From: Ascidia mentula
Taxonomy: Eukaryota > Chordata > Ascidiacea > Phlebobranchia > Ascidiidae
Assembly: GCA_947561715.1 (NCBI GenBank)
Contig: OX387202.1
Coordinates: forward strand, 1,922,001-1,986,000
Length of the DNA stretch: 64,000 bases
Reading direction: 5' to 3'
Below, piece after piece: positions 1,239 to 58,834 of the stretch (positions are counted from its first letter, which is position 1; the number at the start of each line of letters is the position of its first letter). The notes beneath the pieces were generated by a model. The model saw nothing but the letters and a program-made list of their open reading frames with translations. It did not search any database and had not been told where the DNA came from. The position numbers were made by a program, and so were the translations under genes.

Positions 1239-1400
1239 CTGAAGATGCTCAACCTCTCGTGCAACAATATAGAAGACCATGGCGCGGTTTACGTAGCAGA
1301 CTGCATTCAAAACATTGAACAAGTGGATCTGCGTGGATGCGGCCTGACAAGCGTTGGAGTCAAGCATTTGTACGAGAAGATTAAACTGCTGAAGAAACCG
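1239..1400 (+). CDS. NLR leucine-rich-repeat exon L1
   Basis: A 162-nt exon (54 codons) between an AG acceptor (after TTTCATTCAG) and a GTGAGT donor, phase 0 at both ends. It encodes two ribonuclease-inhibitor-type LRRs: LKMLNLSCNNIEDHGAVYVA and then the IEQVDLRGCGLTSVG repeat. Such repeats form the ligand-sensing or autoinhibitory C-terminus of NLR proteins in the cytosol. The exon is open and correctly bordered. The residues after the LNL and VDL strands are SC and RG; these differ between all but the closest copies. It is followed by a NACHT-tail exon in the same phase. The parent NACHT exon would lie left of the window. I infer it belongs to a transcribed NLR gene running left to right. 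Confidence 0.85.
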
Positions 1401-1633
1401 GTGAGTGATTTTATGTCTGTCCAATGAACAATATTTATGTTTGTTTTTGCAATGAATGCGTCCAACATGCACGAAAATGTCAGCGTACTAGAGGTGTTGT
1501 GCGTTAGGTTCATTTGTTTTATAAGAGGAGCCGAGTGACGCAAAACCATACAACCAATTTAGCTGTGTCACATTTCAGGTAATTTTGGAAAATTAAGTTG
1601 ATTTTCAATTAAAAACGTTCTGTCACGATGCAG

Positions 1634-1900
1634 GATTCAAGCTCTACTAATTTGATTTTTCTGAAATATACCAAGGAAACTAAGAAGAAGCTGCTGATTA
1701 ATCTCGCATCGTCGTATATGGGGCAACCGACCAAACAATCGATACTTCGATGTTGCAGCTGGGCTCATGAAGTAAACGATGAGGAGATAACTTCATCCGT
1801 GGCCTCCTTACTCCCTGATAAGATCGACCTCAGTAACTCATCGCTGTTCCCGACCGACCTCGAGAATCTCACCTTCGTGATTCAAAGGAGTAGCAAACCG
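1634..1900 (+). CDS. NLR NACHT-tail (helical) exon H1
   Basis: A 267-nt exon (89 codons), bordered by a GATGCAG acceptor and a GTAAGA donor, phase 0 at both ends. It encodes DSSSTNLIFLKYTKETKKKL and continues into a helical stretch (LASSYMGQPTKQ, CSWAHEVNDEEITSS, LENLTFVIQRSSKP). The last 70 or so residues match the 3' end of the NACHT exon at 50.5-50.7 kb, so it is a duplicated copy of the winged-helix/HD2-like tail that normally joins NACHT to the LRRs. Here it follows an LRR exon instead. Whether it is spliced in is unknown; the frame is fully open. Confidence 0.75.
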
Positions 1901-2780
1901 GTAAGATGTTGTTTATGTATTTTTATACCAGTAAGATATTAGTCCAGTTGTGAGACTTCGTAACGTAAATGAAAATTTTTCATGAGTGACAAATTATAAA
2001 TACAAATTATACAATACTTGACTGCCAGGGATTTGGGCACAAATGCAAGTGTTTTCCAACTAATGGACCGTTACCCCCAAATGGGTCAAATGCTATTTAT
2101 TTTTGGTGGCGGAAATGTGTGGGTGTATTTGTTTTCTTTCATAATAACTTCGATTAAACCCAGTTGTTGCAAGGAAAGTACTTGAACAAAAAAAATTAAT
2201 CAATTGAAATTTGCAAGGGTTTGGTTGTTCGTGTTTGTGGCATAATATACTTTAAGTTGTTTTTGTCATTCAAGATTTCATAAATTTCTGCATGTTTTTG
2301 TCGGAATAATGAAGCATGCTGCAATTATTGAAAGGGGGGCGCTAATAAAAATGAATGGAATTATTGGAGCACACGACGAAAATGGTTAAGAAACCAAACT
2401 GCTTTAATGTTTGTTTTTGTTTTCGTTACAATACCCAGTTGGTAAACATGTATGTTTCCGGTCGTGACTGGTTCTTTAATTTCTCCATAATCTACCCCTT
2501 TAGTTGGCATTGTACTCTGTCAGCGACACCAATTCATTTTGATAATAAGTTAATGTTATCAGATGTTTCAAATTGAAGTCAACTGATTTATTAACAATGT
2601 TGAAAAATTGATTTCGATTGTACGGGCATTCTCAGTTTCTGCAAATACGAAATTACCAGTAAACACAGGAAGCTATACGGGAATTGGTAAAATAAGAAAA
2701 AAAATTAAATAATAAATATAATGGAATAAATAAATCAAAGTAAAAAGCAAAAAGTCCTGTACTACTGCCTTCCCTATGCA
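1901..2780. other. Intron-like sequence, no gene seen
   Basis: AT-rich sequence shared with 52.8-53.4 kb and 59.2-60.1 kb. The open frames in it are short and are not kept in all copies. I see no coding signal. Confidence 0.6.
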
Positions 2781-3990
2781 CTACACAGCAATGGAAGGCG
2801 TTGTGACTCCAGTGGCGCTAAGATAGAATTGAGCGAATGACGGGAACACGCAACACAACAACACCCCAGCACGAACGTACGACGTAAACACAACACAGAA
2901 CGTGATAAGAGCAATGATAAAACCAATGAACAGAATTACGTTGCAACCGAAGGACGCATCAATTAAACATCTAGATGTTATTCCCCGAATTCTGGGAGTG
3001 ATCATTTTTTGGACTTGCTTAGAGATTTTCCCATTTGGCTTCGCAAACATCCAGTCTGTTGACCATCGGTTGTTCCACAAATGTCACTGAAAAAGAGCTG
3101 TCAATGTGCTGGTGTTGACCTGACGAGGGGTGCGCACCTAAATAATGGTGGCGCAGGGCCGTCTTTTCGGTACTCCCCGCTTTGCCTGTTGTCATGTTCC
3201 AATCTGACCTATGTTGCGTCCATCGTTTTCAGAATTTATTTTTAGTCTGATCAGCGTACTGCTCATGACAGATTTGGCACGATGCAACGTAAATGCCATA
3301 ACTTGCACAGGTTAGGTGTTGTGTTAGTTTGTATTGTTTTTTTCATCGTTAAATTGGTCGTTTCAATAACCATAGATTTATGGTTACCATGGTGTCCGCA
3401 CATTGCGCACCGTCTGCAAGCGTAGCTCCCCACGGGGCTGCTGCAGTCTGTTTACAATGCCAGTTGCCGGTAATTGTTCAAAATATTTCCTAAAGGCATC
3501 GATCGTTTGTAAACAATTCTTTCTTGGCTTTTCAATTCTTTCTCTTTGTGCGTCAGTTTAAGCATTTGAGGAAAGGCGGTGCCCAAAGCAATCATCGAGA
3601 TTTGCCCTTTTCGATGGCATCACGCAAGCGCTGTGTCCAAGTTCGTGCCTCTGCAATATTTGCATTAATTGCCTTCTTCGAGAAGCCCGATTTGATACAC
3701 TTGTCCTGAAGTTGATCCAGGCTTTGTAGGTGGTTGTCTTGTCTTTCATTCAGGCAATGCAAACGACAGACTTCACATAGAGTAATGGACTTGTAATTGT
3801 GTCCGGGTGATAATATGTTCCATGAAGGAAACAGCGCTATTTTGCTGTCTCCTTAACAATGTTTTGGTGACAAACCCAAAGCTAGATTCGCAATCCGGCA
3901 CATACCACACATCCAGAAACACTACGGAAGTGTTGTCTTCCTTGATGCGAATTTGACGTAACACAATCCGCAGTTCTGCAGATGTAAATT
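2781..3990 (-). mobile_element. Penelope-like element 3' fragment (GIY-YIG)
   Basis: On the minus strand the sequence reads, in order, a segment with the FLDV motif that precedes the linker in Penelope-like reverse transcriptases, the motif KELKSQ followed by a cysteine pair (CRRCPMCGHHGN), and a GIY-YIG nuclease-like segment (YGIYVASCQICHEQYA, then KRWTQHRSDW), clearest in the sister copy at 60.1-61.3 kb. This order matches the C-terminal third of Penelope-like elements. The frame is interrupted, so it is a remnant. Sister fragments: 53374-53760 and 60121-61300. Confidence 0.7.
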
Positions 3991-5950
3991 CTTCCGATCG
4001 TTAGTCGAACATTCTCACGCATTTATTTGAAACGATTCGATGTCCATACGATTACACCTGTAGTTTTCTTTGCCCAGAATTGTTTTAAATCCAACTCACG
4101 CCCGTACTTTATGCATGATGTGAAAGCGTTGTTTCCATGGACATCAGGTTTGCTCGCAACTTGAATAATGCTGGAATGTTTCAGATCAAACGAAGATTAT
4201 GTAACTCCCGTATTAGAGTGAAGTACATTACCACGTTGTAATGGGAGGTCCCGGAAGTACTAATGTAAGCCATATTACAGGTGTGTCTTTTAGGCGTAAA
4301 CAAATGGGCGTCGGTAATTGCACGCGCCTCGTCAGTGCTTCACGTTGTTAAAGAGTTTGGTAAAAACTTCCTTTTACGCTCATATCGCGATGGACGGTTG
4401 CGATTGGCGATGCATGACGGTCGCGTATTCACACCTGCAGTGCGGTTGGCGCCAACGCGACAAATCATTTCAATATCTAAAATACCATGAGCGTCTTTGT
4501 GTCGTAAAAACTTTGGTACGAAACTTCATTTAGTTTTATTAAGCGACAAAACAAGTTGTTATTAACGATTAACATAATAATCAACAAATTAATCATGTAC
4601 AGAGCTTTACTTAGAATATATGTATTATTTAGTTCGCTATTGCTGTTGTAACAGAGAAATGACGATGTTAGTGGCACTGATCTAGAAGATTTTTTAAACC
4701 AAACGATTTTAATAAATGTAAAAATTAATCAACGCAAGGCAATTTAATCCATTGCGATTAATAACAATACATCAAATATTTTTTGATAACTTATCACCAC
4801 ACACTCAATTTTTAAATAAAATCTGGTAAAACCATCTTAACTTAATCACAACAAGTCGAAGGAAAACAAGTTTCCAATCACTGCAGCTGACGGAAAAGTT
4901 GAAATCAGATTTAACTCCGTCGTCAACCGCTTCAAGCGAGAAAATCACGCCGTCGTCAACCGCTGGTGTGAATGCTTTGACGCTTGCCGCGTTTAGAAAA
5001 CCGCGCCCACAGCCGCTAACCGTGACTGGTGTGAATTTCGTGATATTTTGAAATTATCATAACGAATATCGTATTACGCAAGCGAATTCGCACCTAAAAA
5101 TATAGTCAACGCTATCAAGATTTCTCAAAAGATCATGGTTGAATGAAGAAAAAAGGGGAAAAAATGGACCAACATCGTTGTATAATTTAACACAATAACA
5201 CGGCGCTAAACAAGGTCACAGTGTTTGAGCATTATTTGCGCTGAGTACTTTTTAACAGACAAAACCATCAACGGTAAATTGAAGGAAGAAAAAGAAAAGC
5301 AACATTTTTTTTGGCGAGAAATCGGCATCGAACACAAATCAGTTGGGTTAAGTCAAGCACGACCACTTTCCATTACAAAAACATTTAGTTCGTTTATACC
5401 ATCGATTTTCGATTCAATTGTTCTTGCCGATTTTAAAGTCAACACAAAGTCTTATATGTTTTTTTTTGTTTTTGTTGCTGCCAGGCATATTGTAACTTAA
5501 TAATCTGTTCTTCTGGCAAAGATAAAACGTGACTTTATTCACCGAAGTTTCGCCTGTTATTCAACAAGGCTTCCTCAAGGTAATGGTACAGCACACACTA
5601 ACGCCAAAAAACGTGCCAACACGAAAAAGGGGATAACGCTAACACCGCTTGCAAAATCATGTGATGTATAAAAAATAGGCGGGAAAACTACAGTTACAGT
5701 AAGTTGTTATACTGTGTTACAAATCGCTGTGTTAATGATAGGGAACAGTGCGTTTACTTTCCGGTGCTCTATAACAAATAGCAGTATAATTGAAGAATCG
5801 TTTGCACAACCTCTTGTGACATTTGTTCGGTCGTCGGGTTTCGGTCCAACTTGATTCCCAGTAACTCCTCATCGTCACGCATCGTTGGTATCACTGTCGC
5901 CAACCATAACACTTACCTGGGAGCAACCGGTCGTCTGTTCGTCCAAAGTT
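3991..5950. other. Intron-like sequence, no gene seen
   Basis: Mostly AT-rich, shared with 53.8-54.4 and 61.3-62.7 kb. It includes a GC-richer patch at about 4900-5040 with the direct repeat CGTCGTCAACCGC. The part at about 5400-5880 is absent from the right-hand copy and contains, in reverse orientation, a motif of the type CTTGAGGAAGCC...GGCGAAAC that is common near Penelope-like element ends. Confidence 0.5.
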
Positions 5951-5954: not shown

Positions 5955-6312
5955 CGCAGGTATCACGCGAACTCATCCAACATGTTCACATGATACGTCC
6001 GCTCATTCCCATTGACATCCCGAGCAAAGTCATTAAGTTTTATTGCAGGTTCACCGCGAACTCATCCAACATGTTCACATGATACGCACGTTCATTCCCA
6101 TTGACATCCCGAGCAAATTTATTAAGTTTTGTCGCAGGTTTCACGCGAACTCATTCAACATGTTCACATGATACGTCCGCTCATTCCCATTGACATCACG
6201 AGCAAAGTCATTAAGTTTTATCGCAGGTTTCACGCGAACTTATCCAACATGTTCACAAGATACGTCCGCTCATTCCCATTGACATCCCGAGCAAAGTCAT
6301 TAGGTTTTATCT
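5955..6312. repeat. 89-bp minisatellite, about 4 copies
   Basis: The unit contains GAACTCATCCAACATGTTCA and TCATTCCCATTGACATC, with a period of 88-89 bp. It is the same unit as at 55621-56583 (about 11 copies) and 62741-63256 (about 6 copies). On the minus strand each unit reads DVNGNERTYHVNML, resembling the end of a retroelement pol (GPY/F-like region). The 89-bp period does not keep a frame across units, so the array as a whole is not coding. Confidence 0.9.
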
Positions 6313-6825
6313 TGTAAACACAAACCGAGTCTTGTTGAAGTAGCTTACTGTAGTTAGTGACGTTGGTATTATCACATACACCATGTTCAGTACAAACCTT
6401 TTCAACTGTTGGACCTTCTATATAGCAAATTAAAGGGAGGAAACCCTGTCGATTCTTGCGAAACATAAGCAAAGTCCAAAATGCCTTTGGTTTCATCTTT
6501 TAACGTTATCACAATTGACAAATCGTCTGAGAAAGTTGTTCTCAAATTAGGTTTTCTCAGTCCTTACGAACCCAAGTGATTTTAGGGGGTAGCGAAGATT
6601 TCTTCTCACATCGTGCGAAATTACCTTGTCTTGAATTGTTAAAATCAATTATTTTTCTGCATTGTTAATTGCATCCTTTATATCAGACTGAAGGGGTTTA
6701 AATGCATGCGAACAGCGGTTTAACAAAAATAGATTCGAAAAATGCACACTGCACGCTTCGGTGCTCACAGTTTGTGGCACGTTCAATGACGTCGCGACAG
6801 GACCCCCTCCAGTAGCGGGCAGTCG

Positions 6826-12464: not shown

Positions 12465-14588
12465 TTAGGTCATGTGAAGCAATATTAAAGCAACTAAATC
12501 CTCTCTATATGGTAAAACAAAACACTTTTTTATATTACTTGACATGCACAATAGTTTATAGTCACTGCATAGGTTGGAAATTCTTTGTATCCCTACAATT
12601 TTTGAATGAACCGGGTTTATAAAAAAGTTTAGCACTTTTGTATACTGACATACAACAAAATAAATGTGGCAATTTTCAACAACTATATCAACAACTCTGT
12701 AAAAACAATTATTGTGAAACAATGTGGAGTCAGATATAGTATTTCGCTTAATAACAACAGAATCAAACAAGAAAATTTTTTTTATGAATGACAAAGACTT
12801 TTCCCCAAAAAGCTCAACTAAAACATTCATACCAATGGCGGGTTTTGCATCACGTTTGTCATGTCTTAAAGGGCAATCAAACACAAGATTTTCATTGTTA
12901 TGATATGCAAACCAAGAGCATTGTTGCAGTGGTTTAAATCCAGATCTAACTTGGTCTTTTAAGCAAACCAGGTAGCTTTCAAATGGAAAACATGAAATGT
13001 TTTCCAAACAACCATACTTTTGACAGTCCTCAACCAAGTGAATTAGAGAATGTACATTATAGGTTACAAATTGTTTGCCATATAGTACAACAGATTCATG
13101 CACAAAGTTATGAAGCAGATCACTGGCAGTTTTCAAATTGAAAGTAGTACAATTCTTATCTAAAAAAAACCTCAAGGCACAGGAAAGTTTAAGAAAATGA
13201 ATGTATCTCTCATGTGTTAAAGCATTGCTGTTTTTAAGAACCACTGGTCCCACATATAACATGAATAGCCTAAACTCCATTGCTTTCCAATATAGTATAT
13301 CTTTTAGTGGTCGTAACTTCCGATTAAACTCATCTGGAACAAATGGTTGACAAGCCAAAATACTGGAAGTAATCTCATTTACAGCGTGTGAGGACAATTT
13401 TGCATGTAACTGATGTGGTGTTCCTTTCCACTATAGAAGTAACCGTCGCATCACTCCCAAGCAACCTAAGTGCATATAGTCTAAAATAAAACCAGACACC
13501 ATGTCAACATTTTTTGTAGACAGAACTGACACACCCATTTGATGCTGCTTGTCGATGTGCCTTTTGAAATCTGCATCAGTGCGTTGAGTCCAACTGTGTC
13601 CGAGAAAATATACACGACGCTCAATGTATTGGCCTTTAACAGTACACCTTTCACAACTGTAATATCCAGTATGTGATTTAATGCATTTAAGACTAGATCG
13701 CATTGGTGCATCACAAACGTAAATTCCATAGTTTCCTAGTCTGCACGTTACAGTATCAATTATAACTGGATTTTCAGTGAGATTGTCTAAATCTTTAAGA
13801 AATTCCTTCAGAAACAGGTCAGGAGCAGGGAGTTCTCTGTTGGTGGACTTGTTTGTGCAATAAATTCCAGCACATAGACATTTCATTTTAACAAGATACA
13901 CTTTTATTAGAATTGGATAAAGCTTGTAATCAGGAGAACCTTTAAAAAGTGGTAGTCCATCCACATTGATTATTAAGTAAAATGTAAATTGACAAGCGGA
14001 AAGTTTTAGTCGTAACACTTTATTTGTCAGAATCTTCTTCAAACTAGTTATCCAGTTACTGAAATGAACATATTCACCCCCATTATTCATACTACAATAT
14101 GAAAGTTTGGGTGTGGGTAGTAAGGTTGTAAACGTCATGGGCAAATGTTCATGATATTGCTTTAAAATTTTCAACAGATTGGTCACAGCAGACTTAGGTA
14201 CATTAGGCTCTGTGAGGGCCCATTGTTGCAAAGATTGCTTTAATGCAAAAGGATTAAACTGGTTACCACATGATTCAGGTAGATTTTGTTTAGTTGATCC
14301 AGGAACTGGACCACTAGAAACGACGGAATCATAATCAGAGTTAGACGAAACGTTGCAAAAAAAATCATGGTGGCCCACTTGTTGCATATTACTTGAACTT
14401 GGCCTGTCAGAATCCACGTCATCAGGGATAGTGTCAGTAGTTAAGTCAACTTGATAATCAGAGCCATTTGAAAAAAGAATTGTTTCTTTTCCATCGTTTG
14501 TTTTTTTACACTTTCGACTTGAGGTCTTGCGCCGCCACTTCTGCTGTCTAGATAGTTTGCGATATGGTTTATACTCAGTTTTAGGCAT
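12465..14588 (-). pseudogene. Transposase of the DNA transposon
   Basis: One long minus-strand frame of 708 codons from the ATG at 14588 (MPKTEYKPYRKLSRQQKWRR) to the stop at 12465, interrupted by a single in-frame TAG at 13431-13433. Recognisable family features are NVDGLPLFKGS, CDAPMRSSLKCIKSHTGYYS followed by CERCTVKG, LDYMHLGCLGVMRRLL (DxxH-type motif), YNVHSLIHLVEDCQKYG and FPFESYL. These are typical of a transposase family widespread in invertebrates, distantly like EnSpm/CMC enzymes that excise and reinsert the element. The N-terminus is basic. No intron is needed. The stop falls just after LGVMRRLLL, where relatives continue, so this copy probably makes no full enzyme. Confidence 0.8.
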
Positions 14589-15217
14589 TATAGCGCTGTC
14601 CAAAAATCCAAACCTCTTTCCCTTTCAAACTTCCATATCAACTAAAATATCAAATCTAAATAGGATTATTGCAGATTTAAACCGTTAAAAAAACACCACG
14701 CGCAAAATACGACGACTGCCGATTGCGTAATGCAACTATTAAAGTCGTAAATCCAGTGCGGCAGAATTAGTTCCAGAACAGTGACGCAATAAAAATTTGG
14801 GAGATGACAAGAATAAATTTGCAATTTCCAGGTTATATTGTTTTCAAGATCACAAAACATTTGCAATACATCTGGAAAACAAACTTATTCCAGAAAGTAA
14901 TTAATTTAAATACAAAAAAAATAACACAGATTCAAACGAATTACAACTTAATCAAATGTCAAATTAATTTAGTTTGTCACTTAAATGAGAAATGAGACGT
15001 ATCAAATTTCTTCGCAGTTATATTGCAAATGCAATTGAAAATTTAATTTTATGGTATGATTATCTGTTCATTAAGCATGGAATATCTACAGCTGGGTTAT
15101 GTCCGTTTTATCGTGCTTATATCGGACTAAACATATACGCCACATCCACGGCAATACTACGAAGGCCATATCAAAGATATGCCGCAAGTAACTTACACAA
15201 GATTCATATATAATCGC

Positions 15218-30413: not shown

Positions 30414-30578
30414 ATGGAGATTCTTGATCTGTCCTGGAATTATTTGACGGATGAAAGTGCTGTGTCATTGGCTGCATGTGTTCACAACATTGAGGAGTTG
30501 CGTGCTCCGTTTTGTGACTTCACACAAGCAGGGGAGAATCTCATCAGATCGAAGTCGGGAGGAATAGTTTACTTGTAA
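30414..30578 (+). CDS. Terminal NLR LRR exon L8
   Basis: After the acceptor TTGTTGTTTAG comes a 165-nt frame ending in TAA. It encodes MEILDLSWNYLTDESAVSLA and VHNIEELRAPFCDFTQAG. It keeps the LRR exon length (54 codons plus stop) and phase 0, but it is strongly diverged from L1-L7 and has no downstream donor use because of the stop. It most likely is the last coding exon of the left NLR gene whose LRR exons lie at 1239-25749. Flanking sequence is not cassette sequence. Confidence 0.65.
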   Translation: MEILDLSWNYLTDESAVSLAACVHNIEELRAPFCDFTQAGENLIRSKSGGIVYL

Positions 30579-32575: not shown

Positions 32576-32601
32576 ATTGGTGACCCCGAACGTTTGAGGA
32601 T

Positions 32602-33270
32602 ATGGAAGAAACTCCTGCCATGCACGCAGTTGCTATGAAACTGCCAACGTTTTGGACACAGCAACCAAGAATATGGTTTCAGCAAGCAGAAGCCCAGTTT
32701 GCGCTACGAAGCATTTCTGCTGATGAAACGAAATATTTTTACGTTGTTTCGTCCCTGGATCAAGCAAGCGCCGGTAGACTATTGGATTTATTGGAAAACC
32801 CACCGGATCACGATAAGTACAATTACCTAAAGCAACGTTTGATAAACACTTACGACTGCTCAGATTATGAAAGAGCGCATAAACTGTTACATACATCTGA
32901 ACTTGGAGACCGATCTCCAGCAGAATTAATGGATGAGATGCTGTCATTGTTAGGCCGTCATAAGCCGTGTTTCCTTTTTCGATATATCTTTCTGCAAAGG
33001 ATGCCCGAAGAAATACGAATTATACTCGCAAAAGAAGATTTTGACGACCCACGTGTTTTTGCACGACGTGCTACCACTCTTTGGCAGGCAAGAAGCGAGG
33101 AGCGCCACGCGTTCACGGCTGTCGCAAAGGTAGACAAGCGCAACATGCTCGCGGCGTCTCCACGTGCATCGACACGCACTGCAGCAAATCAGAGACTTTG
33201 TTTTTACCATCAGCGCTTTGGTGAAAAGGCAAAGAAATGTCAACCTCCCTGCAGTTTCCAGGGAAACTAG
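32602..33270 (+). CDS. gag: gag of Ty3/gypsy element
   Basis: 222 codons. The start contains [20 protein letters not shown], the DUF7041-like gag motif known from short-gag gypsy elements. The C-terminus has the [14 protein letters not shown] motif usual in this group, in place of a standard zinc knuckle. Pol overlaps its end in another frame, as is usual in the family. Confidence 0.85.
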
Positions 33271-36200
33271 TCAGCCGGCCGTTGTTAGTTACTTCATCGG
33301 CCGGCAAAGCTCATAACCTCTTTCACATTTGGGATCAAACCACTCGTCGTTATTTCTTAGTTGATACAGGCGCCGAGGTAAGCGTTTTTCCGGCATCACG
33401 TCTTGCTCGTCAACAGCAAGCTAAAGGAATCAAGTTAATTGCAGCTAACGGCAGCAGGATTAATACTTTTGGGGAAAAGGTACTCAACTTGGAACTCGCC
33501 GCTGGCAAATTTCGTTGGAAATTCATACTTGCCGCTGTATCGCAACCTCTTCTGGGAGCCGACTTTCTGCGTGCACATTCCTTGCTGGTAGACCTACGCC
33601 ACAGTTGCCTTGTTCATTCAACATCATTCGCCAGCATTCCTATAAAGGCCACAAATGACAAATCGTCGCGCATTTGCAAATTGACCACATCCACTGAAGA
33701 TTTTACAAGACTTCTCTCACGATTTCCGTCTTTAACTGCACCGAAGTTTTCCAGCATTGTACCCAGACACAAGGTCCAGCATCACATTTGCACAACTGGA
33801 CCACCGGTTCATGCAAAGGCACGTCGTTTATCCCCCGAAAAGCTTGCAATCGCTAGAGCGGAGTTTGCCAAGATGCTTCAAATGGGTATCATTCGTCGTT
33901 CATCCAGTCCTTGGGCCGCACCACTACATATGGTTCCAAAGCCATCAGGTGAATGGCGCCCCTGCGGTGACTACCGCCGCCTAAATGTGTCCACCCAGCC
34001 AGATCGCTACAGCATTCCGCACATCCAAGACTTCACATCGCGGTTGTCCGGCTCCACGATATTTTCGAAGATCGACCTAGTTCGGGGCTACCACCAGGTC
34101 CCTGTTGCCGAGAAAGACATCCAAAAAACTGCTATCATAACTCCGTTTGGACTGTTTGAATTCTTAAGAATGCCTTTTGGTCTGAAAAATGCAGCCCAGA
34201 CTTTTCAACGGCTTATGGACCAGGTATGTCAATCTTTACCATTTGTTTTTGTTTACCTGGACGACATACTGGTGGCCAGCAGTTCCCCAAGTCAACATAA
34301 ATTACACCTAGAACAGCTTTTCCGCCGCCTGCAGGAATGCGGCCTTTTAATCAACTTAAACAAATGTGTTTTTGGAAAAAAACAAATCCAGTTTCTAGGT
34401 CATTTGGTTGATGCCGAAGGCGCAAAACCTTTGCCCAGTAAAGTGGAAGTCATAGAAAAATTTCCTCGGCCCACCACGGTTAAAGGTTTGCAGAGATTTG
34501 CTGGAATGATAAACTTTTATCACAGATTTATTCCTTCTGCCGCAAGTATCATGTTCCCCATTTATAATTCCATGTCAAAAAGGAATGCTCAGCTGCAGTG
34601 GTCTCGTGATTTGCAATGTGCTTTTGACGCAGCAAAACTTGCACTGGTAAATGCAACCAAACTTAACCACCCACATCCTGATGCCACAGTCGCCCTGACT
34701 GTTGATGCATCCGATAGGGCTGTAGGAGCGGTGCTTGAACAGCATATAAACGGGGTTTGGAAACCTCTTGCATTTTTTAGCCGTCATTTGCGTGCTAACG
34801 AGATGAAATACAGCGCTTTCGACCGAGAGTTGCTGGCGGCTCATCTGGCTATTCGTCATTTCCGATACTTCCTAGAGGGCCGCATATTTACCCTCTACAC
34901 CGACCACAAACCGTTGACTTTTGCGTTACAAAGGGCATCGGATCCATGGTCAGCAAGACAACAGCGCCACTTGTCCGCCATATCCGAATATACAACGGAC
35001 CTTCGCCATGTACAAGGTAAATACAATTGTGTTGCTGATACCTTATCCAGAGCAGTGATTGGCTCCATTGAAAATCCTGCAATCAATTTGGATCACATGG
35101 CTCTTGCCAAAGCGCAGCATGTTCCCGAAGTACAAGCTTACCGCACTGCCGTATCCAACTTACAAATTAAGGAAGTTGTGATGGACACCTCACAGGTGAG
35201 ACTTTTATGTGATGTGTCCACTGGTGTTTGCAGACCAATCATCCCGCAATCATGGCAAAGAAAGGTGTTCGACGCTATTCATGGTCTAGCCCATCCAGCA
35301 ATCAGAACAACACGCAAAATGATTTCGTCAAGGTTTGTGTGGCATGGTTTGAACAAGCAAGTTGCCGAGTGGGCTCGGCAATGCTTGCAATGCCAACGTG
35401 CAAAGATCCAAACACACGTACGTTCTCCTCTTCATCGTTATGGAATCCCCAAAGCGCGATTTTACCACGTTAATATTGATATTGTTGGCCCTCTGCCGCC
35501 ATCACAAGGAAGTAGATACTTGCTTACCATCGTCGACCGCTTTACACGATGGCCAGAAGCCATTCCAATGTCTGATGCGACAACCGTCACTTGCGCAAGA
35601 GCGTTTATATTTCATTGGATTGCCCGCTTCGGGATCCCTACGGAAATATCGTCTGACAGAGGCCCGCAGTTTACATCTGAATTGTGGAAGAACATTTGCC
35701 AGCTCATGGGAATTAAACACCACTGCACTACAGCGTTCCACCCACAGGCTAACGGATTGGTGGAGCGATTTCACCGTCAACTCAAAAGCAGCCTGATGGC
35801 TAGATCGGCTAATCCAAATTGGATTGACGAGCTGCCCTGGGTTCTGCTCGGCATACGTAACATGCCAAAAGAAGATCTCACCACGTCAAGCGCGGAACTC
35901 GTTTACGGCTCAACCATTTCCCAACCTGGGGATTTTCCTGCTGCTGCAGACACGTCTATCAAGTATTCCGAGTTTGTACAAACTCTTCGTCGCGCGATTC
36001 AAACATTATTACCGCAGCCCATGTCGCGCCATTGTCGAACTCGTGTATTTGTGCCACCTTCGTTACGCAATTGCACCTATGTTTTTGTGCGTAAAGATGG
36101 ATATCGCCCTCCACTTTCGCCACCGTATGATGGTCCTTTTAAAGTGTCTGCTCGTCACGAAAAGTATTTTGTGATAAACATTTCAGGTGTTGAACATACC

Positions 36201-36317
36201 ATTTCGATTGATCGCCTTAAACCTGCTATTGTTGACTGCTCCAAACCGGTACCTGTTGGGCAAGCTCGTAAAAGAGGGCGACCAAAAAAACAACATCCCG
36301 CTTCTGGGGGGGAGTAA
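33237..36317 (+). CDS. pol: pol of Ty3/gypsy element
   Basis: One open frame of 1026 codons with domains in the usual Ty3 order: aspartic protease near residue 43, reverse transcriptase ([11 protein letters not shown] at about 338), RNase H (from about 485), and integrase with its zinc region (about 680-720) and core (to about 840), then a basic tail without a chromodomain. No break seen. Confidence 0.92.
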
Positions 36318-48700: not shown

Positions 48701-50707
48701 TTACGAGCTTGGGTTTTGGCGAATCCCAACACCATGAAGCGACAAGTGGCGGAACTTTATCCGTTCTAGAAGGAACATATTATTACGTCATAATGCAATA
48801 TCAGCAATTACTGAGCATCAGTTATTGTTGAGTGAAACAGAATGAACATTTTCGCCATTGTTTTATCAACACATGCAAATTCGTTGTGTCATACTTTTTA
48901 TTTGGTTTCGTGGGATTAACTGTGCTTAATGTTTAAGAACATTAATTTAAGGGTTAATCTGCTTACTTTGTGACATCACAAACCAATGCGTAGGCATCCA
49001 TTTTTTGTTCTTCAAAACACCTCACACGTTCTACAAAAAAAACATATCATTGTAGGCGAAGAACTGAAGTCAACTTTAAAAGATAAAGTGGAATCCATCG
49101 CCAGGGAAGAATCATCACTTGCAGAAATTACCCAACGAAACATAACACCAGTTAACCTATCCATAGTCAGCAAACCACAACAGATTGATGACGAGTTTCA
49201 AGCAGAAGGACATTACCATCGTAGAGAGGAGTTGGCTAAAGTTTACGATCGACCATCCGGTGACATCAGCCCTGAAGAAATGTTTACTCGTGCAAAGCAA
49301 ACAGCACAAAGAGAAGCAGAATCGAAATTTAAACCAGAACAAGTGGAAGCAAAACTCGAGTACGTCGAAAAGCATGGAAATATTGTTGGTGTTGTTGGTC
49401 AAGCGGGCATCGCAAAAACAACTTCATGCAAAAAATGGGCTTTACAAGCTTTGCATAGAGAGTTGTTTGGGAAAATATCCTTCATCTTCTACATTGTAAT
49501 CCGAAATATAAATTTCAAAACAAGCATGACTTTCCTTCGGTTTCTCCTCCACGCCATGCTACTTAGCTGGGAATACAATCCAGAGGTAGCTCAGGGCATA
49601 ATGCAAGCAATCAATGGTGATCCAGATGTTCTCTTTGTTTTCGACGGAGTCGATGAAGCAGCTTTCAAATCATTCTCAAGTAAAGCTCCCACTCCCCTGT
49701 TGGATAAAGAGAACAAAGCAGAAGTTTATCTCAAGCATTTATTGAATGGAAATTTGCTTCCACGTTCCCGGAAGATATTCACGTCACGTCCAGCTCCATT
49801 CTACAAACTCCATCCTTCACATCGACCAAGGTTTATTACTCAGATACTCGGCTTAACTCCAAACTCACAGAGAGAACTTGGACAACAGATATGCGGTGCA
49901 AGATATGACTCTGTACAGAACAAACTTGAACAAAACATCAATATGTTCTCTTACTGTTACGTTCCGGTTAATTTCATACTGACTGTTAACTATCTGCTGA
50001 GTCATGATGATTACAGTCAGCTAGTTTCGTTTACCCGTGTTCTGGCATCTACTTGTGTTCAATACCCACAGACTGAACACCTGAAGAATGAAAATCCACA
50101 GTTGAACAAACTTTCAAAATTGGCCTGGGACGGATTTCGGAACAAGAAAGTTGTATTCAAAGTTCAGGATTTCAAAAATGCAAAAATAAAAGACTCAACA
50201 GTTCATGCTTTTCTGAATACCTCAATTACAAAGCAGGGAAACTTAAAGTTGACAATACTGGACGGACATAAACGTAGATATTTTTCACATCTCATTTGGC
50301 AAGAATTCTTCTCCGCGGTTTACCTGATGACGATCATGCCTTTAAAAGAATTCCAGAAACAATACACCCGACTTACCAAGGACAGATGGGAGGTTGTTGC
50401 CAAGTTCGCGTTCGGAATTTGCGATTCTTCAGTTTTCAACGATATTGAAGCCCTAGTTCCCGAATGTTCACGTGAAGATTGGAAAGCGAAGAAGAAGCTG
50501 CTGAAGAATCTCGCATCGTCGTGTATGGAGGAACCAACCAAGCAAGCGATACTTCGATGTTGCAGCTGGGCTCATGAAGCGAACGATGAGGAGATAACTT
50601 CATCCGTGTCCTCCTTACTCCCTGAAGAGATCAACCTCAGTAACTCATCACTCCTCCCGACCGACCTCGAGAATCTCACCTTCGTTATTCAAAGGAGAAG
50701 CAAACCG
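45711..50707 (+). CDS. NACHT-domain NLR receptor, exons 1-4
   Basis: Exons in consistent phase: 45711-45738 (MSSSAPQEQ), 45933-46042 (acidic linker; start less certain), 46386-46539 and 49056-50707. Together they encode 648 residues before the LRR exons. Exon 3 carries a glycine/threonine-rich segment (GPVLGDQNIHTTGPVYTGPV). Exon 4 starts with a coiled-coil-like stretch and then a NACHT ATPase: Walker A GQAGIAKTT near residue 212, Walker B VLFVFDGVDEA near 289-299, sensor-like IFTSRPAPF, then helical and winged-helix parts to LENLTFVIQRRSKP. NLRs are cytosolic sensors that oligomerise on activation. No CARD, DEATH, PYD or DED precedes the NACHT. The last donor (GTAAGA, phase 0) leads to LRR exons at 52129 and 58673. 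The 2.5-kb third intron holds a gypsy fossil. Confidence 0.85.
46257..46312 (+). ncRNA. Hammerhead-like motif (candidate)
   Basis: CTGATGA is followed by a stem (GTCT-GCC / GGC-AGAC) and then GAAA, matching the two conserved boxes of a hammerhead ribozyme around stem II. ACGT pairs with a later ACGT for stem III. Stem I pairs poorly. Such motifs occur at Penelope-like element ends; this may be a decayed one. It lies in intron 2 of the NLR gene. Confidence 0.3.
46386..46539 (+). CDS. NLR exon 3 with amyloid/RHIM-like segment
   Basis: A 154-nt exon after TGCAG, with a GTGAGT donor, entering in phase 0 and leaving in phase 1. It encodes NIQGEGPVLGDQNIHTTGPV, then YTGPVTIKQQVKVVQH and a Q/H/P-rich end. 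The pattern of G, D/N, Q/N and beta-branched residues with two TGPV units resembles RHIM and NLR-associated amyloid motifs, which sit at N-termini ahead of NACHT or NB-ARC domains. This is an inference from the pattern only. Confidence 0.55.
47240..48085 (-). mobile_element. Ty3/gypsy fossil in NLR intron 3
   Basis: The minus strand reads the end of the integrase (LQEFLLQYRHTPNASGFSPS, LLNGRPIRAKIDTLL) and the pol tail (FPRGPIWRRHIDQLRVRYV, then RSCKPPERFHY), then a purine-rich tract and LTR-like sequence. It belongs to a different gypsy lineage from the element at 32.4 kb. Only the 3' part is present and it is broken. Confidence 0.75.
48086..49055. other. Rest of NLR intron 3
   Basis: No gene seen. 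The sequence is unique within the window. It ends in the acceptor ATCATTGTAG at 49055. Confidence 0.5.
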
Positions 50708-52128
50708 GTAAGATGTTGTTTGTGTATTTCTGTACCCATGGCGGTAATCCTGGGGGAGGGGCGGCAAGGGACTTTCCCCAATATTTGGTTTGGTGGGGAC
50801 ATAATATGATTGGTCCGCCAAATAACTTACAGTATTTAATGTTTGGTGTTTTAAATCCCTCCAATATAAAGTCTTCTTCGTCGGATAAATGAATTGATTG
50901 AAAGAAGCGCGTCCATAACTGCATCGTTTCGGTCCAGGTCGTCATTTTGGTCGTAATATGACCCCACAGTTGTCAATTATTGTTGCACAAACAACCGAAT
51001 AATGTCATTGTTTGTGCGCTTAATTTTAGCGGGAGATCTGTGTTATTTCGATGTTTGGTCATTTCGTGATAACAGAAAGTACGGAATAAAAGATAAGAAA
51101 AGTTTAATTTTGTTTCAAATAAAATCTTCTGAATAACGTCCACGATAATAACACGCACAACCACGTCGGAGTAAAGTTATAAACTCGTGGTAGATTTAAC
51201 CAATTTGTTGCAAAGTCGGTTTTTATATATGTATTCTTTATCAAATATTAGGTTGTTTGTGTTTGTGACGTAACACACTTTCCCATATTTTTTTATATCA
51301 TAACAATTTTTCTAAATGTATTGTTGACCTAATAGTGGTGGCTGGATTATTTTTCCGAAGACAGTTTTTATATTTCTGGATGTTTTTGTCTGAAAAATGA
51401 AGCATGCTGCAATTTTTGAAAAGCCTGCCAGCTGTTTACACGTTGCTGACGCTACCAGACATGGTGATAACTTAACACAAAACAGATTTTCTGTCCTTTG
51501 TGTGCAATATATTTTTTCGACGATATTATTCGTCATCATATTATTGACGGTGATAAACGAACAGAGTTTAAGTGGTGTCAGATATAATCAACACATAATA
51601 TTTTGTGTTTACCTTCTCACAACATGAAGATGTCAATCATAAGTGACTGTAAATGGAGCCGGTGCCCATTCTTGTAAACAAACCCGTATTCACGAGTGAT
51701 TTTGTACTTAGAAACGTAATGGTGCGACACGGGTAAATGTTATGGTAAAATGTAATAACGGTCGGGATTCGTGGCCAGGATTTCCTGGGTTCAAATCGCG
51801 ATGAAGTCCCAAAAAATAAATTGTGCTAACGTTTGTTGGAAAGGCTTACACATCACTAAAATGGAGTTTTGTCCAAAATAATATTAGGAAAATCGATTTA
51901 TATTTTAAATAAAAGGGCGGGTGATACGTCCACGTGGGGAACCTTCCCGCTTCACTGATTGAAACTTAGGTTTGTTTAAACTTTGTATTTCAACCAAAAC
52001 AGGCAATTATATTTGTATGAAGCAAACTTTAAACAAAACGGAACGACATCCATATAAGCCATTATTTGTTTGATTCCTTGTGTTATTGTTGTTGACACCA
52101 TGTTTTACTTGGATATTATTTCGTTCAG
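50708..52128. other. NLR intron 4
   Basis: Contains pieces shared with the B cassettes (51588-51760 is like 15450-15600) and with type A introns (51240-51420 is like 2190-2330). No coding signal. Ends in the acceptor TTTCGTTCAG. Confidence 0.6.
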
Positions 52129-52516: not shown

Positions 52517-52774
52517 GATTCAAGCTCTACTAATTTGATTTGTCTGAAATGTACCAAGGAAGCTGAGAAGAAGCTGCTGAAGAATCTCGCATCGTCGTAT
52601 AAGGGGGTGCAGCTGATACTTCGATGGTGCAGCTGGGCTCATGAAGCGAACGATGAGGAGATAACTTCTTCCGTGTCCTCCTTACTCCCTGATGAGATCG
52701 ATCTCAGTGACTCATCGCTCCTCCTGACCGACCTCGAGAATCTCACCTTCGTGATTGGAAGGAGAAGCAAACCG
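52517..52774 (+). CDS. NLR NACHT-tail exon H6
   Basis: A 258-nt phase 0-0 exon after TATACAG, with a GTAAGA donor. Encodes DSSSTNLICLKCTKEAEKKL, LASSYKGVQLILRWCSWAHE and LENLTFVIGRRSKP. Three codons shorter than H1 and H7, through an in-frame deletion around the KPTKQ region. Open frame. Confidence 0.75.
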
Positions 52775-53760: not shown

Positions 53761-54460
53761 TGATGCTCATTTGACGGAACACAACCCGCAGTACTGCTGA
53801 TGAAAATGCTTCCGGTCTTTAGTCGAAAATTCCTTACGCAATTATTTGAAACGATTCGATGTCCATACGAGGTCCCGAATTACTGATGTGAACCATGTTA
53901 CAGGTGTGTCTGTTAGGCGTAAACAAATCGGCGTCGGTAATTGCACGCGACTCGTCAGTGCTTCGCGTTTGGTGAAAACTTCCTGTTGCGCCCATATCGC
54001 GGTTGACGGTAGCGGCTGGCGATGTATGACGGTCGCGTATTCACACCTGCAGTGTGGTTGGCGTCAACGCGACAAATCATTTATACATCTAAAATACCAT
54101 GAGCGTCTTTGTGTCGTAGAAACGTTGGTAGGAAACTTCATTTAGTTTTATTAAGCGACAAAACAAGTTGTTATTAACGATTAACTTAATAATCAACAAA
54201 TTAATCATGTACGGAGCGTTTACTTAGAACATATGTATTATTCAATTCGCTATTATTGTTGTAACAGAAAAATGGCGATGTTAGTGGCACTGATCTAGAA
54301 GATTTTTTAAACCAAACGATTTTATTATCGCCAAAAATTAATTAACGCAAGGCAATTTAATCCATTGCGAACAATAATAATACATCAAATATTTTTTGAT
54401 AACTTATCACCAAACTCTCAATTTATAAATAAAAGTAGTTAAAACCACCTTAAATTAATC
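53761..54460. other. Type A intron sequence, no gene
   Basis: Shared with 4010-4830 and 61340-62180 but with internal deletions. No coding signal. Confidence 0.6.
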
Positions 54461-55620
54461 AAGTGCATATGACACGGCCATGGAAACTTTGCGTAAAACT
54501 AAAGGTACATCTACAACAGACATATATCCAAAGTTTTTCGGTTCTACGTCAACTAAAAAATGTATAGAAAACTACACGAAAAGTAGCGGCGACCAAAAAT
54601 CGTAAACCTTTTGCGCTGTGGCGAAAATGACATCACACAAGACGCTCGCGTCGAAAAAATGCATTGTTTACATAGGAGAAGGCCCCTTTTATTGCAGATA
54701 TCGAATAGTTTCAAACACAGGAGAATCCACAGATTACGTTACCTCAAAGGTCAGGACAAGGTTTTACATCACACAAAAATATGTCACTGTGACGTCACAA
54801 ACCAAAGGCTTATTTATCCCTGATTATCGGAAGACCAAAGGGTCTGGCAGCAACGACATTACTCTGTACTTCGATAAGACGGGGATGGTGTGTTTCTTTG
54901 CTCAGTGACATTACATGACGTCATTTTGGGTGTGATGTCATAACTTTAACCTCACCTTTGTGTGGATTTTAATTTGATGATTCCAACATTTCTAGTTACG
55001 AACTATATTGCGAAAAATACATTATGGTGGATTGTGGCGAATTAAATAAATCATTTAGGACGCGAACTCGTAGGCAACGCTACTGTCGGGCAAAAAGTGG
55101 TACTATGACAGAATAACAGTGTTGTGTTGCATAATCAGCAAATTTGTTCGGCCTTTCTCGGCGGTCTTTGCCAGCTTCAAAATTCAATTAACCTACTTCT
55201 ATCTTTAGCTGTGAGTGGACAAAACGACAATGGTAAACTGACGGTTTGTCTCTGTCGTGTTTTCATAAGTTCATGTATCACTTTAGCGATCATAAAAGCC
55301 GTAACAACAAGAACACCCTGTCCCAGTAACTGTTTTATTATCATACAACTAAATAAGACATAATAGGTCAAAACAGCGGCCATCTGTCTGCAGCTCAAAT
55401 TAACAACAAAATCCGTTTGTTGCACTTGTTTACTTGTTGTGCCCTGTTTAATGCAAAACTATACTAAACCAGTTTTACAATGTTTTCCATTCCTACGCAA
55501 AAGGCTTGCTGCCAGCACTCGCACGACCAAAGGGCCTTCTATGACGTCACGCAACAAAAATATTGCTTCCGCACGATTTCATTCGCAGCGGTAAAAATGC
55601 GACTTTGATCAGCTGTATCT
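54461..55620 (+). repeat. Dispersed repeat, fullest copy
   Basis: About 1.16 kb, inserted into the middle type A block. An interrupted inverted copy lies at 31860-32430 plus 36463-36755. It holds an open frame at about 54618-54908 (CRYRIVSNTGESTDYVTSKV, then FYITQKYVTVTSQTKGLFIP and NDITLYFDKTGMVCFFAQ) that I do not recognise. No clear terminal repeats. Confidence 0.7.
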
Positions 55621-56583
55621 CGAACTCATCCAACATGTTCACATGATACGTCTGCTCATTCCCATTAACATCCCGAGCAATGTCATTAGGTTTTATCGCA
55701 GGTTTCACGCGAACTCATCCAACATGTTCACATGATGCGTCCGCTCATTCCCATTGACATCCCGAGCAAAGTCATTAAGTTTATCGCTGGTTTCACGCGA
55801 ACTCATCCAACATGTTCACATGATGCGTCCGCTCATTCCCATTGACATCCCGAGCAAAGTCATTAAGTTTTATCGTAGGTTCACCGCGAACTCATCCAAC
55901 ATGTTCACATGATACGTCCGCTCATTCCCATTAACATCCCGAGCAATGTCATTAGGTTTTATCGCAGGTTTCACGCGAACTCATCCAACATGTTCACATG
56001 ATGCGTCCGCTCATTCCCATTGACATCCCGAGCAAAGTCATTAAGTTTATCGCAGGTTTCACGCGAACTCATCCAACATGTTCACATGATGCGTCCGCTC
56101 ATTCCCATTAACATCCCGAGCAATGTCATTAGGTTTTATCGCAGGTTTCACGCGAACTCATCCAACATGTTCACATGATACGTCTGCTCATTCCCATTAA
56201 CATCCCGAGCAATGTCATTAGGTTTTATCGCAGGTTTCACGCGAACTCATCCAACATGTTCACATGATGCGTCCGCTCATTCCCATTGACATCCCGAGCA
56301 AAGTCATTAAGTTTATCGCTGGTTTCACGCGAACTCATCCAACATGTTCACATGATACGCACGTTCATTCCCATTGACATCCCGAGCAAAGTCATTAAGT
56401 TTTATCGCTGGTTTCACGCGAACTCATCCAACATGTTCACATGATACGTCTGCTCATTCCCATTGACATCCCGAGCAAAGTCATTAAGTTTTATCGTAGG
56501 TTTCACGCGAACTCATCCAACATGTTCACATGATACGTCCGCTCATTCCCATTGACATCCCGAGCAAAGTCATTAAGTTTTAT
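55621..56583. repeat. 89-bp minisatellite, about 11 copies
   Basis: Head-to-tail units of 88-89 bp starting CGAACTCATCCAACATG. At least two unit subtypes alternate (ATTGACATCCCGAGCAAAG versus ATTAACATCCCGAGCAATG), showing higher-order duplication of unit pairs. Largest of three arrays. Confidence 0.95.
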
Positions 56584-56654
56584 CTTGTAACACAAACCGA
56601 GTCTTGTTGAAGTAGCTTACTATAGTTAGTGACTTTGGTATTTTCACATACGCT

Positions 56655-56858
56655 ATGTTCAGTACAAATCTGTTCAACTGTTGGCGCACAGATCTTCCAT
56701 TCAGCAAATTGAAGGGAGGAAACCCAGTCGATTCTTACGAAACAAAAGCAATGGTTGAAGTGTATTTGGATCCATCCTGGAACGTAATCACAATTGTCCA
56801 ATCGTCCGGACAAGTTTTTCTCAAATTAGGTTTTCTCGGTCCTAACGAACCCAAGTGA
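56655..56858 (+). CDS. Exon-like open frame, unknown
   Basis: Frame with MFSTNLFNCWRTDLPFSKLK, then YETKAMVEVYLDPSWNVITI and GQVFLKLGFLGPNEPK to a stop. The corresponding stretches in the two sister blocks (6380-6580 and 63330-63530) lack several bases and are closed by stops. It could be a host exon fragment carried in the block. No family recognised. Confidence 0.3.
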   Translation: MFSTNLFNCWRTDLPFSKLKGGNPVDSYETKAMVEVYLDPSWNVITIVQSSGQVFLKLGFLGPNEPK

Positions 56859-57089
56859 TTTTAGGGGGTAGCGAAGATTTCTTCTTACATCGTGCGAAAT
56901 TATCTTGTCTTGTTTTGGTAGCATCAATTCAAGTAAATTTTTAATTGCATCCTTTGACTTTTTATCAGACTAATGCGGCTTTACTTTCGAGCGCCTCTGA
57001 AAGAGTTTAAATTCATGCAAACAGCGGTTTAGCAAAAATAGATACGAAAAATGCACACTGCACGCTTCGGTGCACACAGTTTGTGGTAC

Positions 57090-58510
57090 GTTCAGTGAGG
57101 TCGCCACAGGATCCCTCCAGTGGCGGGCAGTCGTCACGCCTGGTAACGTTCTGGTGGGCGTACGTGACGTCGAGGTCTTCCCGGCGGCTTGGGTTGCGCT
57201 ACCTGAACTGGCACGGACAAGTCATCGTGCTCTGTTTCCAGCCGATTGATGGATACGTGTTGGTCGCGACCGCCAATATCAAGTGTAAACGTCTTGGCTG
57301 CTCGTTGCAACACCTTATAGGTACCGTAAGACGCAGTTGAAGAGGTCAGTGGGTGTCTCGTCGTGACGAATTTTGGAACGCTTACGCAAACCTTGTTATG
57401 TCTCGACATGGGCGTCGGAAGCAGCTGAGATCTTCGGAGTGCAAGCAAACGTGATGTGGGTTCATTTGGTGAAATGAATTGCTCAGCAACAGCCAATGTT
57501 GAGCCATAAACCATCTCCGCTGAAGTTGTCTGCAAATCAAGTTTTGAGGTAATTCGTATTCCCAACAACACCCAAGGTAGGCATGTGGGCTGTAATACGG
57601 AAACGGGATATCCAATGGTAGATGAAAGCGCGTGCGCACGTAATCCTGCGTGGGAATTGCCTCTGGCCAGCGAGTAAAACGGTCTACCACCGTGAGTAAA
57701 TACATCTTGCCTTGACATTGTGGTAATGGCCCAACTATGTAAATGTTGACATAAATGAAACGGTTTGACGGACGTGGATATTCCTTTCATGACGCTTTGA
57801 TGTGCAGTTGTACTTTGGCTCGCTGGCATAAGAGTCACTGCCTCACCCATAGACCCGCTTCCTTGCGCAATCCATGCCAAACAAACTTGGAGGTAATAAG
57901 CTGCTTATGATGATGCGGATAGACGGGTGAGAATGTCCATGAATAACGTCAATCACATCCATGCTTCTGGGACGACCGACAGTGGATTACCGAGTGACAC
58001 CTCGCATAAAAGCTTAACACCTGGAATGGTAACGTCCTGAAGATGAAGCCCAAAGCTGTACGATGCGTCTGTACCTCGTAGGTTGGTTGCACTGTTGACA
58101 AAGCTTCAAACTCGAAATCCAAGGTTGGCGTTTGCAAAGTAGACATGGTAGCATTCTAAAGGGCATCGGCTGCTTTGTTACTTTTCCTGTTGATTTGCTG
58201 CACATCAGTGTTGAACTCCGATATCGCCGAAAGATGTCGCTGTTAGCGTGAAGACCAAGGCTCTGTGATTTTTTCCAAACCAAAAGTGAGAGGTTTATGG
58301 TTTGTGTAGGCAGTAAAATGTCGACCATCAATAAAGTATTGTAAACATCAAATAGCTGAGTGAAGTACCAACAGTTCACGATCAAATACGCTGTAACTTG
58401 ATTTCGGGCTTCCTCAGCTGAAGGCTGAAGAACGCAAGTGGCTGCCAGTTGCCGTCGATAAACTTTGATGGTCAGAAATCGGAATATACAAACATCAACC
58501 ATTAAGCTTT
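57090..58510 (-). mobile_element. Ty3/gypsy pol fossil, long copy
   Basis: The longest gypsy fossil of the blocks. The minus strand covers the RNase H end, integrase pieces ([14 protein letters not shown], then WVLLGIRITSKLDL) and the pol tail (RPRRHVRPPERYQA). Related to the whole element at 32.4 kb. Broken in several places. The part from 57433 is duplicated at 1-1030. Confidence 0.85.
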
Positions 58511-58672
58511 CAGCGTAACGAGACAGTTATTTATATCGGTAGAAAAAATATTTATGTCAAAGTTAAATAATTATTATTATTTTGTTTCGCGTTGCCAAAC
58601 TGTAGTTTCAATACCATCCATTTGTATTGTTGTTATTCATACCATGTTTTACTTGGATATTATTTCATGCAG

Positions 58673-58834
58673 CTGAAGATGCTCAAACTCTCGGGCAACA
58701 ATATAGAAGACCATGGCGCGGTTTACGTAGCAGACTGCATTCAAAACATTGAACAAGTGGATCTGCGTGGATGCGGTCTGACAAGCGTTGGTGCCAAACA
58801 TCTATACGAGAAGATTAAACTGTTGAAGAAACAA
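58673..58834 (+). CDS. NLR leucine-rich-repeat exon L7
   Basis: A 162-nt phase 0-0 exon encoding LKMLKLSGNNIEDHGAVYVA and IEQVDLRGCGLTSVGAKHL. The last codon is CAA rather than CCG, giving CAA|GTGAGT. Exposed residues SG and RG. Very close to L1, as expected from the block duplication. Confidence 0.87.

Follow-up and report, generated by a model that had tools for sequence, protein, structure and literature searches.

We analysed a 64,000-nucleotide stretch of chromosome 6 of the ascidian Ascidia mentula (C70, ~1.92–1.99 Mb; hereafter the window). The genome comprises 195.8 Mb plus a mitochondrial contig of 19,461 bases, whose COX1 has AGA/AGG codons where other animals have glycine, in keeping with the ascidian mitochondrial code. 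Judged from its coding sequence, the window holds two predicted NLR-type genes that belong to a large family on this chromosome. A preliminary description had noted seven exons encoding leucine-rich repeats (LRRs), L1–L7, each 162 nt long and free of stops. Our reading agreed on these features and on the coordinates, and showed all seven to be in phase 0-0, preceded by ag and followed by gtgag. This exon is the subject of the analysis below: its variants appear to be exchanged between genes and selected at codons of the concave LRR face.

Both genes lie on the forward strand. Gene 1 includes L1 (1239..1400), L2 (8253..8414), L3 (17311..17472), L4 (21665..21826) and L5 (25588..25749), and its NACHT exon is located just upstream of the window (C70:1917–1919 kb). 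L1 encodes 54 amino acids, is bounded by cag and gtgag and belongs to intron family 3 (families are defined below), while L2–L5 all belong to family 1. A further exon at 1634..1900 (89 amino acids), which we call a T exon, is a copied 3' end of a NACHT exon, comprising the HD2 tail and one LRR, with its own splice acceptor. The gene ends at position 30578 with a terminal LRR exon (30414..30578) of 54 codons followed by TAA, and similar exons are found elsewhere on chromosome 6. L2–L5 had been described as cassettes B1–B4. We rejected their interpretation as stand-alone units because a NACHT exon precedes the series and a stop-bearing terminal exon closes it; the B exons are consecutive exons of one gene.

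Gene 2 is the next NLR gene after gene 1 and contains L6 and L7. Its NACHT exon (48974..50707) carries the NACHT domain, a NOD2-type winged helix, HD2 and the first LRR; the 3' boundary reads ccg followed by gtaaga, and the 5' boundary given here is only the start of the open frame. It is followed by L6 (52129..52290; intron family 4), a T exon of 258 nt (52517..52774), L7 (58673..58834; without a close intron relative among the 129 exons compared below) and a second T exon (58974..59240). The 611-amino-acid open frame at 48974–50809 matched the Pfam domains NACHT (1.3e-15) and NOD2_WH (3.5e-8), a result obtained for gene 2 only, together with an NLRC4_HD2 match (6e-5) below its cut-off. Among the Pfam matches of this frame there was none to CARD, PYD or Death.

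Each 162-nt exon encodes two LRRs of the ribonuclease-inhibitor type. When the five LRR exons and the last exon of gene 1 were joined, the best match was ribonuclease inhibitor 1dfj (E 2.5e-23), which we take to be the porcine protein; lower matches included 5irm (E 1e-13; listed as ‘Uncharacterized protein’ and presumably NOD2) and NLRP1/NLRP7 chains. The LxLxxN and LxLxxCxL register was kept throughout the alignment. The NACHT domain and winged helix of gene 2, and ribonuclease-inhibitor-type LRRs in the same blocks, are the features by which we provisionally assign these genes to the NLR family. Because the LRR exons are in phase 0-0, they could be added in variable number without breaking the frame, and their phase and splice sites suggest that they are spliced together with the NACHT exon.

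The same architecture extends along chromosome 6. We identified at least 152 LRR exons of this kind (149 of 150 scored genome matches plus three more, from the window and a further search), a minimum figure since scoring was limited to 150 candidates, and 33 NACHT exons between 0.17 and 6.05 Mb, of which 32 are intact (90–100% identity over a 177-amino-acid query) and one is broken. The chromosome also contains 45 T exons, five of them with stops, and terminal LRR exons. Nearly all of the LRR exons (148 of 152) fall into 33 blocks, each headed by a NACHT exon and sharing its strand and the order NACHT - L - (T - L)n - L..., with 0–10 LRR exons per block (mean 4.5). All 132 internal LRR exons that were read have AG/GT ends and lack a stop. 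No stop was found in the 150 best-scored LRR exon matches either, a similarity ranking that would place broken copies lower. T exons alternate with LRR exons, and their most variable codon is codon 68, the counterpart of LRR residue 8.

A near copy of gene 1 at C70:1571640–1595385 illustrates how such genes change. Its L1 and B1 exons are identical to those of gene 1, with introns 1.25% and 0.6% apart, and its subsequent LRR exons (1590403 and 1595224) differ, indicating that exon number and content change after duplication. More NACHT clusters were observed at C70 2.68–3.0 Mb, C2 16.1–16.85 Mb, C1 24.2–25.2 Mb and C52 1.1–5.4 Mb, and there are at least 142 NACHT matches genome-wide, including fragments.

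For the comparison of exons, we collected 135 and counted 129, with 20 of the 152 known LRR exons outside the collection. Three of the exons left out have divergent length or register (333123, 168 nt; 3906901, 159 nt; 1313769, 162 nt but read one codon off register), all with AG/GT ends and no stop, and three are terminal exons (1117795, 1167873 and 1952414). Flanks were long enough in 128 of the 129 exons, and a minimum of 420 aligned bases retained 2216 of 8128 pairs. We defined residues 3, 5, 7, 8, 28, 30, 32 and 33, the concave-strand positions of the LRR pattern, as exposed; residues 2 and 27, which are also x positions of LxxL, are outside this set and are conserved. From the table we drew 34 independent pairs with introns no more than 6% apart. 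Individual codons were evaluated with a per-site test in the fixed-effects style using 122 distinct exons and one tree (P values uncorrected), and the null distribution was simulated for 800 sites on the same tree without selection.

Within the window, the exons L1–L7 read SC, YN, WG, FD, FH, SG and SG at residues 7–8, RG, SR, VK, GE, SE, GG and RG at residues 32–33, and D, D, Y, D, Y, D and D at residue 30, exactly as first described. The near-identity of the surrounding introns was borne out for B1–B4 only, which are 3.5–5.2% apart (250 nt before and 400 nt after the exon); the introns of L1, L6 and L7 place these exons in different groups. The B1–B4 exons themselves differ from each other at 14–20 of 162 bases. 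In a set of 12 copies including B1–B4, divergence was 3.7% in introns (jackknife standard error 0.6), 14.2% at silent sites (1.0), 32.6% for exposed replacements (4.0) and 6.8% for other replacements (0.6).

The independent pairs gave the same picture. Replacement divergence (pN) at exposed codons was 0.202 (95% confidence interval 0.146–0.261) compared to a silent divergence (pS) of 0.076 (0.057–0.097), a pN of 0.038 in the rest of the exon and an intron divergence of 0.0275, and exposed pN did not exceed pS in 0 of 5000 bootstraps. Replacement and silent codon differences numbered 99:5 at exposed codons and 125:69 elsewhere (Fisher P = 4e-10). The residues most often replaced were 32 and 33 (18 of the 34 pairs each), 8 and 45 (16 each), 3 (15), 24 (13) and 7 (12), and replacements beyond the eight concave positions were concentrated at residues 24, 45 and 53. 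Most framework codons are conserved, with a framework pN half of pS, and mean entropy was 2.05 bits at the eight exposed positions versus 0.53 elsewhere. The diversifying selection originally proposed is thus supported, with 20% exposed replacement divergence against 7.6% silent divergence, and exon divergence exceeded intron divergence in both samples. The accompanying claim that changes fall mainly at exposed strand positions stood only in part: the exposed replacement rate was the highest, but about half of the replacements in close pairs were elsewhere (135.8 versus 137.5).

Per-site results narrowed the signal to a few codons. Five residues reached P < 0.002, with likelihood-ratio statistics of 35.7 (residue 32), 29.3 (33), 16.7 (24), 10.2 (30) and 10.1 (8). 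Of the 800 null sites, 3 exceeded a statistic of 9.5 with the sign of positive selection, and a value of 15 was never exceeded; because the highest null value was 14.1, residues 8 and 30 lie inside the null tail and residues 24, 32 and 33 outside it. The codon alignment therefore points firmly to positive selection at residues 24, 32 and 33 and more weakly to selection at residues 8 and 30. The expectation of a dN/dS above one held for four of the five residues for which it had been stated (8, 30, 32 and 33; P = 0.0015, 0.0014, 2e-9 and 6e-8) and failed for residue 7 (alpha 3.0, beta 1.7). Codons 8, 32 and 33 mostly keep their third base (NNC, NNT and NNA), and silent changes are less frequent there than elsewhere in the exon; the third base is T in 115 of 122 exons at codon 32 and A in 118 of 122 at codon 33.

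We grouped the exons by their introns, which yielded families of 32, 22, 11 and 9 members and many small ones. The introns of families 1 (n = 32) and 2 (n = 22) are 26.6% apart, with 88 fixed differences in 398 aligned nucleotides. Their exons have no fixed difference in 162 nt, a pS of 0.142 between families compared to 0.158 and 0.123 within them, and the same two alleles at 24 of the 29 sites polymorphic in both. The fixation index (Fst) between these families was 0–0.1 across the exon, remained low to about −100 and +50, and rose to 0.67–0.94 outside this module. Since silent divergence is the same between and within families 1 and 2 and not one exon difference is fixed, gene conversion confined to the exon seems to carry variants between the two. 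The remaining five pairs that can be formed from the four largest families had an exon Fst of 0.10–0.37 with 0–1 fixed differences and an intron Fst of mostly 0.5–0.9; families 3 and 4 have a downstream intron in common. Exon pS changed little with chromosomal distance (0.19–0.22 up to 1.5 Mb and 0.22–0.23 beyond, to 6 Mb).

Silent sites of the exon are also more diverged than the adjoining introns, which implies that selection on new mutations is not the whole story. Decay of CpG sites was considered as the cause of this excess and rejected, since an exon silent divergence of 6.2% versus 1.8% in introns persisted without CG, TG and CA sites. In family 1, the squared correlation (r2) between exon sites fell from 0.14 within 10 nt to 0.04–0.055 beyond (floor ~0.03), and intron r2 started at 0.34 and took more than 100 nt to decay to 0.06. 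Exon r2 in family 2 was 0.10 at 11–40 nt and 0.085 at 41–100 nt, ranging from 0.05 to 0.10 beyond 10 nt. Across the 122 exons, codons 7 and 8 were clearly linked (z = 9.3) and most other codon pairs were not. Mutual information alone cannot separate conversion from recurrent mutation, and the comparison of families is needed for this reason. Read together with that comparison, the linkage pattern suggests ectopic gene conversion in tracts that do not span a whole exon, and the silent excess, the variants common to families 1 and 2 and the weak exon linkage make the exons look like a shared, converting pool.

We therefore consider an exon pool shared between NLR genes by exchange, combined with selection at concave-face codons, to be the best explanation of the locus, and a very likely one. 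The alignments show that the same LRR exon variants occur in genes whose introns are unrelated, completely so for families 1 and 2 and partially for the others, that linkage within the exon is weak, and that selection favours replacements at the x positions of LxxLxLxxN, namely residues 32 and 33, with a weaker signal at 8 and 30, and also at residue 24. Each gene has one conserved NACHT exon, a varying number of 162-nt LRR exons and, in gene 1, a terminal LRR exon. Ectopic gene conversion would move variants between genes, and selection would retain the useful ones. Conversion would be confined to the exon because nothing outside it is alike enough between families (for families 1 and 2 the likeness extends ~100 nt upstream and 50 nt downstream of the exon), and unequal exchange would alter exon number. 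The selected face would bind variable ligands, most likely from microbes or non-self, and the receptor would then work as an NLR.

Several observations weigh against this explanation or limit its reach. All data are paralogues from one reference assembly. The exposed set was not blind: it was fixed after the exons of the window and the residues listed in the preliminary description (five of the eight) had been seen. The per-site test used a single tree despite recombining data, and the simulations were run without recombination. About half of the replacement changes in the 34 pairs lie outside the eight preset positions, residues 12, 28, 39 and 53 reached only an uncorrected P < 0.05, and residue 7 did not pass the per-site test, although it showed 12 replacements versus 2 silent changes in the independent pairs. 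In family 3, which contains L1, exposed-site divergence (0.122) was below pS (0.151), so that not every family is diversifying now. Between the other five family pairs, pS was 0.197–0.251 compared to 0.123–0.210 within families, which indicates that exchange with families 3 and 4 is only partial. The exon r2 of family 2 was about twice its floor of 0.048 and no lower than in family 2 introns, several codon pairs besides 7–8 were mildly linked (z = 4–5), and low linkage disequilibrium could partly reflect recurrent mutation at selected codons. Finally, DNA conservation outside the LRR exons is not strong, with pN/pS values of 0.79 for the 3' ends of seven NACHT exons and 0.57 for 12 T exons, though the NACHT proteins share 90–100% identity with the gene 2 protein.

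If exons had recently been duplicated together with their introns and had then differed only through strong selection on new point mutations, exposed pN would also lie far above pS, and some tandem neighbours fit this account well: C70:561843 and 564398 (introns 1.6% apart) differ by 14 replacement changes and 1 silent change. We nonetheless regard it as improbable, and the picture of recently duplicated modules diverging in this way alone was not upheld. Exon silent sites are three to four times as diverged as introns (7.6% versus 2.75% in the independent pairs, with the excess persisting when CpG-type sites are removed), variants are common to families 1 and 2, and linkage within the exon is weak; the absence of fixed exon differences between families whose introns are 27% apart contradicts new mutation as the sole cause. 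Local hypermutation of the LRR exons would account for the raised silent divergence and for the frequent two-base changes at exposed codons (33 of 99). It is highly improbable given that exposed codons in the 34 pairs have only 5 silent-only differences, that third bases hardly vary, and that the exons are identical in 5 pairs with introns <0.8% apart (a small sample of 7 copies, three of which form one local triplet); nor would it yield shared alleles and zero fixed differences between families. A template mechanism resembling that of diversity-generating retroelements was rejected as well: most exons have NNC at codon 8, but the third base of codon 33 remains A, although an adenine-directed process would be expected to alter it too.

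The variation could instead be old and held by balancing selection, with introns homogenized within families by concerted evolution and exons rarely exchanged between families. Such variants would raise linked silent diversity, linkage in family 1 introns decays with distance, and the silent divergence of families 3 or 4 versus the rest exceeds that within families. However, families 1 and 2 would have had to inherit the same variants and fix no silent difference while their introns reached 27%, the linkage expected from a few old haplotypes is absent among the variants, and exon pS is nearly flat with distance (0.19–0.23 from <10 kb to 6 Mb). On its own this history seems quite improbable, and the process it describes may act together with exchange and selection. 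Least credible of all, with almost no probability, is that the LRR exons are decaying leftovers that have lost constraint at exposed positions. The stops in 5 of 45 T exons would fit decay, but neither the 150 best-scored matches nor the 132 exons read contain a stop, the latter all have AG/GT ends, and framework pN is half of pS. Moreover, pN exceeds pS at exposed sites, and since relaxed constraint cannot produce such an excess, this reading is refuted.

An extension of the proposed exchange and selection can be formulated, which we consider unlikely at present. The family would amount to a germline collection of interchangeable LRR exons, at least 150 in number, recombined by conversion fast enough to give each animal, perhaps each cell lineage, its own NLR binding repertoire. 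A chordate that belongs to the sister group of vertebrates and lacks adaptive immunity of the vertebrate type would then have an LRR-based combinatorial equivalent of the non-self receptors of fungi and plants, which might be used for allorecognition in addition to defence.

The remainder of the window contains other elements. Between the two NLR genes, at 32584–36317, is a retroelement, presumably of the Ty3/gypsy type, with two long open frames (228 and 1030 amino acids) and weak aspartyl-protease matches below cut-off; pieces flanking it match 54.5–55.5 kb in inverted orientation. Arrays of an 89-nt tandem repeat occupy 5957–6434, 55610–56707 and 62728–63383. A pair of neighbouring long open frames lies on the minus strand at 12465–14624; one of them matches DUF4218 weakly, below cut-off, and DUF4218 occurs in some DNA transposons.

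Known systems share individual features of this locus. The variable lymphocyte receptor (VLR) genes of lampreys, which are assembled in lymphocytes from donor cassettes, likewise use LRR modules as a combinatorial recognition repertoire; unlike them, the exons described here, known from one reference assembly, sit in complete genes. To our knowledge, it is unsettled whether animal NLRs recognize targets through hypervariable LRRs in the manner of plants. In plant highly variable NLRs (hvNLRs), as reported (PMC8226289), variable residues occupy the x positions of LxxLxLxx along the concave side of the LRRs, the same LRR positions that vary here, with the difference that the plant variation is among alleles of many individuals and ours among paralogues of one animal genome. 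The hvNLR definition asks for at least 10 positions with an entropy of at least 1.5 bits in an allele alignment; 8 of 54 positions reached 1.5 bits across our paralogous exons, to which a definition for alleles does not directly apply.

Closer likenesses are found in zebrafish and in fungi. The zebrafish NLR-B30.2 genes, as reported (PMC4852459), form a large family mostly on one chromosome arm, with a variable number of LRRs and a fixed last LRR; conversion spreads B30.2 across otherwise distinct groups, positive selection is found in B30.2, and the LRRs are described there as not particularly variable. Both families are large and clustered, with a recognition part that is converted across groups and positively selected; unlike the zebrafish family so described, the diversified part in Ascidia mentula is the LRR exons, and the last exon of gene 1 is an LRR exon that carries the stop. 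The NWD genes het-d and het-e of Podospora anserina are NACHT-WD40 non-self receptors, with 69 repeats in 10 genes in the published account (PMC1805685). As in that account, the repeats of a NACHT receptor are exchanged within and between genes and interface codons are under diversifying selection (four per repeat in NWD). Both hallmarks of such a pool were found here: repeat exchange, for families 1 and 2 and partially for others, and a signal of positive selection at interaction-face codons. Unlike the fungal WD40 proteins, these are LRRs with one exon per two repeats, and for that reason the introns provide an external clock and show where exchange stops.

In a metazoan survey (PMC11508797), ascidian NLRC proteins are reported to be NACHT-LRR proteins without CARD. 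We found no tunicate family of the present kind among the matches listed in the open-licence literature on ascidian, tunicate and animal NLRs, which does not prove its absence. An exchanged repeat pool with a few interface codons under diversifying selection is already known from the fungal NWD genes; what appears to be new is that, in a family of animal NLRs, the LRR exon is probably the unit of exchange and of selection alike. With the introns, mutation, selection and exchange can be told apart, making conversion rate, tract length and selection measurable from a few more genomes, and the locus names residues to test for ligand binding. It also offers a case in the sister group of vertebrates with the LRR concave face as the diversified part.

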